Below are positions 38,021-41,009 of a stretch of DNA of 64,000 bases, piece by piece. Position 1 is the stretch's first letter, and every line of letters begins with the position of its first letter. The notes beneath the pieces are model-generated. The model was not told where the DNA came from and ran no database searches. It was given only the letters and a program-made list of their open reading frames with translations. The translations under genes were made by a program, and so were the position numbers. This DNA is from Halosolutus amylolyticus (lineage in GTDB: Archaea > Halobacteriota > Halobacteria > Halobacteriales > Natrialbaceae), in NCBI RefSeq assembly GCF_023566055.1, contig NZ_JALIQP010000002.1, forward strand, positions 558,001 through 622,000, given 5' to 3'.

Positions 38021-39637
38021 ATGGCAGGACGGGCACTGACGACGTACCAGCCCACGAAACCCGAACTCGCCGTACTGATCTCGGGGATCGTCAGCATGGG
38101 CCTCGAGATTCTCGCCGTGCGGATCGTCGCGCCGCAGTTCGGGAGCCACATCTACACCGTCGGCGGCATCCTGACGGTCTTCCTCGCGGCCCTGAGCCTG
38201 GGCTACTGGCAGGGCGGCAAGCGATCGGTCACGGCCACGAACCGGGAGATGGTCTGGATCATGCTCGCGACGGCGACGTACGTCGCCGTAGTGGTCTACG
38301 CGAGCGACCTGTTGCTCACCGCGACGGCGACGCTGGCGGTGCCGCCGCGGTACGCTTCGCTGCCGGCCGTGATCCTCCTGTTCGGCCCGCCGACGTACCT
38401 GCTGGGCTTCATCAGCCCCTACGCGGCCGAACTCTCGCGGAAGGAGAGGACCGGCGAGGCCTCGGGCCACGTTTACGCGCTGGGAACGATCGGGAGCATC
38501 TTCGGGTCGGGCGCGACCACGTTCGTCCTCGTGCCGGCCCTCACGATTTCACAGATCGGCGTCCTCTTCGGGCTCACCCTCGTCGGGACGGCGGTCGCCC
38601 TGACGCTGCCGTCGCTCCCGCGAAAGTCAACCGTCGCGAGCATGGTCGTCGTGCTGTTGCTCGTCGGCGCCGCGGGCGGCACCCCGATCGCGTACGACTA
38701 CCGCGGCGAGGTCGTCTACGAGACCCAGACGCCCTACCAGCAACTCGAGGTCGTCGACGACGGCGACGTCCGAACGCTGTACCTCGACGGGGCGCGCCAC
38801 AGCGCGATCGATCTCGAGGACCCCGATCGACACGTCTTCACCTACACGGAGTACTTCCACCTGCCGATGCTGATGGCCGACGACGTCGACGACGTCGATC
38901 GGGTCCTGTTCGTCGGCGGGGGCGGCTACACCGGTCCGCAGGACTTCGCGGAGCAGTACGACGTGACCGTCGACGTGGTCGAGATCGATCCCGAGGTGAC
39001 CGGCGCGGCCGAGACCTATTTCGGACTCGATCGCGGGGACGTCAACGTTCACACGGGAGACGGCCGCCAGTTCCTCCAGCGAACCGACGAGACCTACGAC
39101 CTGATCGTTCTCGACGCCTTCAAGAAAGAGCAGGTTCCGTTCCACCTGACGACCGTCGAGTTCATGGAACTGCTCTCCGAGCGGCTGAGCGAGGACGGGA
39201 TGGTCCACGCGAACGTGATTTCGGCACCCAGCGGACCGGCGGGCGAGTTCTACCGCGCCCAGTACAAGACGATGGCCGAGGTCTTTCCGACGGTTTCCAG
39301 TTACCGCACGTCGGACCTGAACGCGATCCAGAACGTCCAGCTCGTGGCTTCGAAGGACGACACGCGGCTCACGAAAGCCGAACTCCGCGACCGGAACGCC
39401 GCACGGGAGACGGGGGTCGACCTCCAGGACCCGATCGACAACCGGATGGCCGAACCAGACACCGACGACGCACCGGTGCTGACCGACGATCGCGGCGAGG
39501 TCGACAGCCTGCTGGATCCGATGCTGGGACAGCGCTATGTCATCGAGGAGACCGACGGAACCGAGACCACGGGCGAACCCGCAGCCGCGATCGGCGGGGA
39601 CCGGACGATGCGGGCACCGATCGCCACCTCCCGATAG
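38021..39637 (+). CDS. Membrane protein with spermidine-synthase-like methyltransferase domain
   Basis: The 538-residue protein has about seven or eight N-terminal membrane helices to residue 230 and then a spermidine-synthase-like Rossmann domain at about 245-480. The motif VLFVGGGGYTGPQDF is near 305, an acidic end of strand VEIDPEV near 325, and ALDAFKKEQVP-like DLIVLDAF near 362. Such fusions are widespread and their reaction is unproven; putrescine aminopropylation is not assured. A non-conserved acidic tail follows. The ATG at 38021 begins just before the first helix. Confidence 0.82.
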   Translation: MAGRALTTYQPTKPELAVLISGIVSMGLEILAVRIVAPQFGSHIYTVGGILTVFLAALSLGYWQGGKRSVTATNREMVWIMLATATYVAVVVYASDLLLTATATLAVPPRYASLPAVILLFGPPTYLLGFISPYAAELSRKERTGEASGHVYALGTIGSIFGSGATTFVLVPALTISQIGVLFGLTLVGTAVALTLPSLPRKSTVASMVVVLLLVGAAGGTPIAYDYRGEVVYETQTPYQQLEVVDDGDVRTLYLDGARHSAIDLEDPDRHVFTYTEYFHLPMLMADDVDDVDRVLFVGGGGYTGPQDFAEQYDVTVDVVEIDPEVTGAAETYFGLDRGDVNVHTGDGRQFLQRTDETYDLIVLDAFKKEQVPFHLTTVEFMELLSERLSEDGMVHANVISAPSGPAGEFYRAQYKTMAEVFPTVSSYRTSDLNAIQNVQLVASKDDTRLTKAELRDRNAARETGVDLQDPIDNRMAEPDTDDAPVLTDDRGEVDSLLDPMLGQRYVIEETDGTETTGEPAAAIGGDRTMRAPIATSR

Positions 39638-39647
39638 ACAGATTGCG

Positions 39648-40378
39648 GGCTCTGTTGAAACTCTTGCTTGGGGATATATTTCGGGAGTCATGCTGAATAC
39701 AGGGCGCATATCGGACACAGTGCAACCCAAGATCTATGCACTCACTCCGATTTGTGGAACTAATGGTCGGGTTGGAACGTGGAACCGTCGAATTGGAGCC
39801 GTTTCGAGAAGAATGGAAGGAACTCTACAACCAAGAAATAGCGCGGCTGAAAGATATCGCGGGCGATCGGTTCCTCGAGTTTGAGCATATTGGTAGCACC
39901 GCCATCGAGGGAATGCCTGCGAAGCCAATAATCGACATCCTCGCTGTCGTCGAAGATTTGGACGAAGCGGAAGATCTCATCCCTCTACTCGAAGAACACC
40001 GGTACGAATACCGCCCCGGAGACATAGAAGGACGACTATTCTTCGCCAAAGGGCCGCGCACGAATCGTACCTTCTACCTCTCACTCACAGAGCAAGGGAG
40101 CGACTTCTATACCGATAAAATCGCTTTCAGGGAGTATCTTCGTGAGCACCCTGAAGCCGCCGAACAGTACGCCTCCTTGAAGAAGAAAGCGGCAGAGAAA
40201 TATCCGAAAAACAGGGAGAAATACACCGCGGAAAAGGGAGACTGTATTCAGGATATTCTCGATCGGGCGATGAACGAGTAATCACTGCTCTACCCATATG
40301 CCCGTGCTCCAGTTTGATAGATACAGCCGCTGTATTCAGCAGGTGAATGCTATCAGGTACTGTGATTTCAACAGAGCT
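39648..40378 (+). mobile_element. IS6-like bounded cassette carrying a GrpB gene
   Basis: The left end reads GGCTCTGTTGAAA and the right end is the inverted copy TTTCAACAGAGCT, 12 perfect bases; these resemble terminal repeats of IS6-family elements. A 7-base imperfect direct repeat flanks them, GATTGCG at 39641-39647 and GATCGCG at 40379-40385. Inner inverted repeats TGCTGAATACAG lie at 39691-39702 and 40330-40341. No transposase is inside; the only cargo is the low-GC GrpB gene. The unit is probably non-autonomous. Confidence 0.65.
39763..40281 (+). CDS. GrpB family nucleotidyltransferase-like protein
   Basis: The 172-residue protein fits the GrpB family, a nucleotidyltransferase fold. The conserved signature FEHIGSTAIEGMPAKPIIDILAVV lies near residues 38-60 in the start region. 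The length is normal. Codon usage and base composition are unlike the neighbours: one 60-base stretch holds only 45% G+C by count, and codons such as GAA, AAA and TAT are common. It sits between inverted repeats as the sole gene of a mobile cassette. An ATG at 39736 gives nine extra residues; 39763 starts the conserved part. Confidence 0.85.
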   Translation: MVGLERGTVELEPFREEWKELYNQEIARLKDIAGDRFLEFEHIGSTAIEGMPAKPIIDILAVVEDLDEAEDLIPLLEEHRYEYRPGDIEGRLFFAKGPRTNRTFYLSLTEQGSDFYTDKIAFREYLREHPEAAEQYASLKKKAAEKYPKNREKYTAEKGDCIQDILDRAMNE

Positions 40379-40451
40379 GATCGCGTCGATTCGGGGTCCT
40401 CGGACGATCGAGCCTCTCGAATCGCCGGCCCGCTAATCGGCGGCCGCGTCC

Positions 40452-41009
40452 TCAACCCTGCCACTCCTCGCGAAGCAGTCCGTACTGGATCGTATCGCGG
40501 TATTCGCCGTCGACGAATCGGTCCTTCCGGAGGCGACCTTCCACGGTGAACCCGAGCGATTCGAGCAGTCCACGGGACGCGTCGTTGAAGTCGTAGGCGA
40601 CCGCCCAGACGCCCGGCGCGTCGTAGACCCGGAACACGTACTCGATGACGAGCGAGACGGACTCCCGGCCGTACCCCTCGCCGTGGACCTCGGGGATCAG
40701 CCAGTAGCCCAGTTCGGGCCGCCGCCAGTCGGCGTCCTGGACCGAAACGAGGCCGATCGGACGTACGTCATCGTCCGCGGTCGACGGATCCGGTTTCGGC
40801 GGGTCCCGATCGCCCTCGAGGCAGACGAGAAACAGGTCGTCGTCGGGGTCCTCGACCCACTCCTCGATCTCCGATCGATTCTGGACCGGCGACCCGAGCG
40901 GGTAGCGAAGTTCCGGATTGGCGCTCCCGCGCTGGAGGAACGGGACGTCCTCGGTCTCGACCGACCGGAGCGTGACTCGTTCGCCGTCCTGCACGCGTGC
41001 TCCCGGCAT
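40452..41009 (-). CDS. GNAT acetyltransferase, RimJ/RimL-like
   Basis: The 185-residue enzyme matches the RimJ/RimL type of GNAT: VTLRSVETEDVPFL at residues 12-25, an internal PELGYWLIPEVHGEGYGRES acetyl-CoA region near 105-123 and a C-terminal RGLLESLGFTVEGRLRK. It probably acetylates a protein N-terminus or a small amine; the substrate is unknown. It begins at an ATG at 41009 and is convergent with the mobile cassette. Confidence 0.82.
   Translation of the reverse strand: MPGARVQDGERVTLRSVETEDVPFLQRGSANPELRYPLGSPVQNRSEIEEWVEDPDDDLFLVCLEGDRDPPKPDPSTADDDVRPIGLVSVQDADWRRPELGYWLIPEVHGEGYGRESVSLVIEYVFRVYDAPGVWAVAYDFNDASRGLLESLGFTVEGRLRKDRFVDGEYRDTIQYGLLREEWQG

Follow-up and report, generated by a model that had tools for sequence, protein, structure and literature searches.

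How does a single low-GC gene come to lie between transposon-like ends that enclose no transposase? The question is raised by a 730 bp segment (731 bp if position 40,378 is counted) at positions 39,648–40,377 (+) of the window, the whole 64,000-nucleotide stretch of Halosolutus amylolyticus DNA that we analysed. The original prediction held that IS6-type ends here carry a GrpB gene in place of a transposase, forming a non-autonomous cassette that moved its cargo. We think it likely, with a probability of roughly 0.86, that the segment belongs to a haloarchaeal IS5-family transposon system, as a mobile insertion cassette with a passenger gene and no transposase.

The GrpB segment and its insertion site

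The limits of the segment were set from its tips, matches to end models, a drop in GC and an empty site in a relative. Its tips carry GCTCTGTTGAAA at 39,649–39,660 (+) and 40,366–40,377 (−), an inverted match at 12 of 12 positions as had been predicted. Allowing up to two mismatches, GCTCTGTTGAAA has four matches in the window against 1.39 expected, and the perfect ones are the two tips only. The left tip reaches 13 bases, GGCTCTGTTGAAA, from 39,648, and on the right the outermost base is changed or lost. The inner inverted pair, likewise predicted, is TGCTGAATACAG at 39,691–39,702 and 40,330–40,341. Together these define a left (L-type) end of approximately 62 bp (39,648–39,709, +), with TGCTGAATACAG 43 bp from the tip, and a right (R-type) end of approximately 57 bp (40,321–40,377, −), where TGCTGAATACAG lies about 37 bp from the tip and runs on into the dyad ATACAG-CGG-CTGTAT. 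The left end scores 62 bits with end model R1 (E ~2e-16 per genome) and the right end 45 bits with model R2 (E ~4e-11), both ends having been among the sequences used for building the models. GC content is 0.50 in the segment versus 0.67 in its flanks. The flanking repeat GATTGCG/GATCGCG is present as described; read as an 8 bp duplication with the right tip at 40,377, the flanking 8-mers AGATTGCG (39,640–39,647) and TGATCGCG (40,378–40,385) agree at 6 of 8 positions, a match equalled or bettered in 3.9% of control flanks with a jitter of ±1 allowed. Taken alone, this is only suggestive of a target duplication, which would have decayed; the state of the flanks and of the right tip suggests that decay has begun since insertion.

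Both neighbouring genes are intact. On the left is a spermine-synthase-domain membrane protein (38,021–39,637, +; PF01564) with an ortholog in 41 of 61 genomes, and on the right a convergent GNAT acetyltransferase (40,452–41,009, −; PF13302), which adjoins the left neighbour in locus L075. The segment sits directly after the left neighbour’s stop, in the convergent intergenic gap, and breaks neither gene. In G001, the nearest same-genus genome (left neighbour 84% identical), the two neighbours are adjacent, separated by approximately 100 bp that contain no insert. As the neighbours are adjacent there, the site was formerly continuous, and the GrpB cassette was inserted into it. No GrpB was found in G001 or G002, and a search for GrpB with the same flanks at the syntenic place but lacking these ends, which the original prediction had named as contrary evidence, yielded no such case. 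The proposal of a non-autonomous cassette thus agrees with the transposon ends, the lack of a transposase and the empty site, from which we infer movement. The cassette occurs once, and neither a second copy nor strain-level movement was seen. Two further cassettes of the H. amylolyticus genome, L106 and L109, also have empty sites in G001, where the joined flanks match at 82% (1–400) and 79% (841–1240), respectively; the L106 site is empty in G002 too, at 75%.

As predicted, the only gene inside the 730 bp, judged by open reading frames and Pfam, belongs to the GrpB family (39,736–40,281, +; 181 aa, with the start perhaps at ATG 39,763), and neither a transposase gene nor a remnant of one was found there. 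PF04229 (E 1.8e-45) covers the protein over its full length (profile positions 2–159 of 159; 155 bits versus a cut-off of 25.5), and its solved relatives are PDB 2nrk (GrpB; E 2.4e-23) and the GrpB part of a dephospho-CoA kinase. Codon differences from relatives fall mostly at position 3, and the GrpB lineage has therefore been under selection to stay a working protein. GrpB is scattered in its distribution, with 31 of the 100 searched genomes having it, and the closest relatives at the DNA level include a Halobacterium plasmid gene (L124, 78%). No recognisable ends were found at this plasmid gene or at loci L025–L028, and 29 other GrpB loci, when examined, had no IS5-type cassette ends nearby. 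Given this distribution and the 29 loci without adjoining ends, GrpB looks like an ordinary passenger, with nothing tying it to transposition. The same 29 loci ruled out a mobilising or addiction role for GrpB and lent no support to the earlier suggestion of tRNA, protein or another element as its target; any benefit from GrpB is presumptive. Separately, a Haloprofundus salinisoli plasmid carries an unannotated, decayed 3′ GrpB fragment (L126, 3001–3335; 81% identical) with a partial R-type motif just downstream, which might at a stretch be what is left of another GrpB cassette, in a different family.

A class of paired-end elements in haloarchaea

We ran the L-end model (62 bp, 39 sequences) and the R-end model (57 bp, 17 sequences) on 61 haloarchaeal genomes, and obtained matches in 50 and 47 of them, respectively; the genomes with ends span many families of the order. 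Pairing used the best 300 matches listed, which correspond to 263 distinct ends, and joined neighbours within 7 kb. Among these matches 66 pairs pointed inward, two outward and eight lay in tandem on the same strand. From the pairs we fetched 71 elements of 463–6286 bp, 69 of them distinct. At the exact tips the flanking 8-mers were identical in 23 of the 71 and agreed at 7 or more positions in 34, against none of 568 shifted controls at the latter threshold. An 8 bp target duplication is therefore clear across the class. Most of the elements are also AT-richer than their flanks.

Transposases are scarce among these elements. Only one of the 69 distinct elements (L241, identical to the L247 discussed below) has a transposase of the clade that shares its tips, and among the paired elements no further transposase could be recognised as an element’s own gene. 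Different IS5 genes occur in three (nested with its own ends in L201; as inserts inside the end dyad in L221 and L222). DDE_Tnp_1 matched 5 of 124 scanned cargo proteins, and four of the five were identified. Because the inner motif is missing from the transposase-side end of autonomous elements, the pairing under-counts them.

Most paired elements instead hold diverse, unrelated genes, and several of the shortest have no open reading frame of at least 70 aa. Where the duplication matches at 7 or more of 8 positions, Pfam cargo includes GNAT, a BAT/HTH_10 regulator, a saccharopine-dehydrogenase-like protein, an M23 peptidase, a PAS histidine kinase, alpha/beta hydrolase, DUF2270, an MMPL transporter, CBS, PBP-like, DUF7344 regulators, and a fused N6/N4 methylase–Mrr nuclease; other paired elements contain PIN (beside an AbrB-like gene) and a formate/nitrite transporter. 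PADLOC gave single matches on cargo to restriction methylases and to SIR2-Argonaute-associated and PDC-S65 models. The methylase fused to the Mrr-type nuclease domain is the only large gene of a 2101 bp cassette with a 7/8 duplication (L216, 1201–3301). Approximately 33 kb past the right edge of the window, the H. amylolyticus genome has a 4402 bp cassette with a 7/8 duplication (L105, 4626–9027; G000:C2:654625-659026), which encodes proteins of 706 and 366 aa without a Pfam match and a zincin-like DUF3267 protein, and which is possibly a defence or stress module. Four larger elements (L193, L199, L208 and L225; 4.4–6.3 kb) hold several genes, and some of them may contain nested or chance-paired ends.

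In many ends the inner motif forms one arm of a dyad: the mean length of the longest perfect stem is 4.8, versus 3.7 for shuffled controls, and stems of at least 5 occur in 54% of ends versus 14% of controls. The arms vary from end to end and yet match one another (TGCTGAA/TTCAGCA, TGCTGCAT/ATGCAGCA, TTGCTGG/CCAGCAA), and the simplest guess is that the inner motif is a putative transposase-binding site. At six separate loci (L004 1501, L150 1501, L184 1501, L221 1201, L222 1201 and L277 2373) a different IS with TGTTTAGACGC tips lies at the same point inside the dyad, roughly 57–62 bp from the cassette tip. Judging from these positions, this IS appears to target the cassette ends.

An IS5-family transposase with the same tips

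The H. amylolyticus genome contains a 1505 bp element (L247, also L005; G000:C7:161498-163002) in which both 13 bp tips are as in the GrpB cassette. It is flanked by a perfect 8 bp duplication, GTCCAGGT, and encodes a full-length IS5-family transposase (NF033579, E 2.5e-65) without stops, together with a passenger of its own (99–106 aa). Compared with transposase-bearing elements of this clade, the GrpB cassette matches at 13 of 13 tip positions on the left and 12 of 13 on the right. At 12 of 13 related loci and at 9 of 12 further loci, the transposase ATG is preceded by the tip (11–13 of its 13 bases) at a distance of exactly 52 bp, and perfect 8 bp duplications surround seven IS5 elements of 1160–2152 bp (L247, L254, L250, L256, L291, L293 and L295). 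Between transposase and far tip the sequence varies from copy to copy, and the transposase-bearing members hold varied passengers. In L247 and in L298 of genome G034, whose transposase is 71% identical to that of L247 and whose duplication CGAATTTT is perfect, the far end is of the L type, as on the GrpB cassette. On the transposase side, the end is without the inner motif present at both cassette ends, and more distant IS5 clades have other tips. Two IS5 copies, L290 and L301, on the chromosome of G027 (a match to Natrialba magadii) have swapped flanking 8-mers, TTATAACC/ATTCGATA, a pattern that reads as the signature of inversion by recombination between copies.

Taken together, the shared tips make an IS5 transposase the probable agent that mobilised the GrpB cassette in trans. 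As the IS5 transposase-side end has no inner motif, a closer, unseen transposase may be its real partner. No close IS5-clade member was shown in G007, G053, G009 or G066, all of which have these ends, and mobilisation there must for this reason have been in the past or by another enzyme. These observations, and the lack of a transposase in nearly all two-ended elements with both inner motifs, would fit an account in which the same cassette is moved by another, unrecognised transposase with the inner dyad at both of its own ends, the tips of L247-like IS5 elements being alike through relatedness only. We judge this account improbable, since a canonical L-type end, an IS5 transposase and perfect duplications occur together in L298 and L247, and since none of the elements was found to have a different transposase as its own gene, the IS5 genes of L201, L221 and L222 looking nested.

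Much the same material could be the fossil of an IS5 element that was formerly autonomous, with a GrpB passenger, and from which the transposase gene was deleted at this site. Autonomous relatives do carry both transposase and passenger, and the flanks and right tip of the GrpB cassette are decayed; the 730 bp without a transposase remnant, the cassette-type inner motif at both ends, and the commonness of transposase-less cassettes, many with fresh duplications, which implies that this form moves as such, make this history very improbable. The predicted IS6 origin, in which an IS6 transposase moves the cassette by cointegrate formation, has equally slight prospects and was set aside: the IS6 family (PMC7986276) resembles the cassette in its general tip style (GG..CTGTT..AAA) and, like the class to which the cassette belongs, makes 8 bp duplications, but the six haloarchaeal IS6-family (PF13610) loci with readable ends in related genomes (L055, L056, L058, L059, L064 and L067) carry GGCACTGTCTAGTT, several GGCACTGTCTAGTT-ended PF13610 loci being flanked by perfect 8 bp duplications, whereas GGCTCTGTTGAAA tips bound an IS5-family transposase. 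IS1595, with a transposase on a Natrialba magadii plasmid, was also ruled out as a partner by its CGCTCTTGTGTAG ends.

Proposed mobilisation and comparison with known systems

For the preferred reading, a passenger cassette of an IS5 system, we propose that a transposase of this clade (NF033579; one intact copy in the H. amylolyticus genome) would recognise the approximately 13 bp tip GGCTCTGTTGAAA in inverted pairs, with the adjoining end of approximately 60 bp probably forming part of the recognition. It would mobilise any DNA between paired ends and insert it with an 8 bp target duplication; the interior would be free to vary, since nothing but the ends is needed. Autonomous members would combine the transposase with a variable passenger region and non-autonomous members would hold passengers only, here a single GrpB gene. 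The GrpB cassette would have landed after the left gene’s stop in a short convergent gap, broken nothing and then begun to decay.

More tentatively, and at somewhat less than even odds, these elements may constitute a general gene-shuffling system of haloarchaea. Its cassettes, as many as a dozen or more in one genome, would lack a transposase, hold one to several unrelated genes each, have in common only dyad-bearing ends of approximately 60 bp and be moved by an IS5 transposase in trans, the dyad being a working part and not a relic. If true, this system would parallel, for archaea, the gene-cassette pools known from integrons and the like, by its effect and not by its mechanism. Gene exchange among haloarchaea is extensive, and a large part of the accessory genome is found in low-GC patches with no evident vehicle; cassettes would be such a vehicle, with signalling, transport, peptidase, regulatory, toxin–antitoxin and DNA-methylase/nuclease genes as cargo whose fitness value we infer. 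They pass for plain host genes, because the interior bears no sign of a transposon. With the ends known, the cargo pool can be annotated and transposition tested in a genetically tractable archaeon.

Mobile insertion cassettes are a known kind of element, and the GrpB cassette by itself is a further member. What may be new is a widespread, modular haloarchaeal IS5 cassette system, of which we found no description in open-licence papers (ISfinder being outside this scope) on these tips, archaeal passenger transposons or haloarchaeal cargo elements; a passenger gene in a Halorubrum transposon is noted in PMC10544981. Comparable systems include the IS5-family transposons with a passenger region (the L247/L005 clade; NF033579), which share with the class of cassettes identical 13 bp tips, 8 bp duplications, variable passengers and, in two members, the L-type far end, but which encode a transposase and lack the inner motif at the transposase-side end. 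ISH2 and haloarchaeal MITEs (PMC3119063, PMC10264941) are archaeal and non-autonomous too and are moved in trans, as we propose for the cassettes, and ISH2 contains a small ORF; ISH2, however, has ISH8-type ends, a 10 bp duplication and repeated content, whereas cassette interiors differ by element. The qnrS2 mobile insertion cassette element of Aeromonas plasmid pAC3 (PMC5444012) similarly encloses a functional gene and no transposase between inverted repeats, but it is bacterial, with other IS ends and one known cargo. In the accounts available through PMC6542083 and PMC2266710, which cite Chen 1999 and De Palmenaer 2004, the MIC231 mobile insertion cassettes of Bacillus cereus (IS231, IS4 family) are also transposase-less, with IS ends, passenger genes and modular autonomous relatives that have genes beside the transposase; set against these accounts, the haloarchaeal cassettes differ in their IS5-family ends, which are longer and contain an inner dyad, and in their wide range of cargo and phylogenetic spread.
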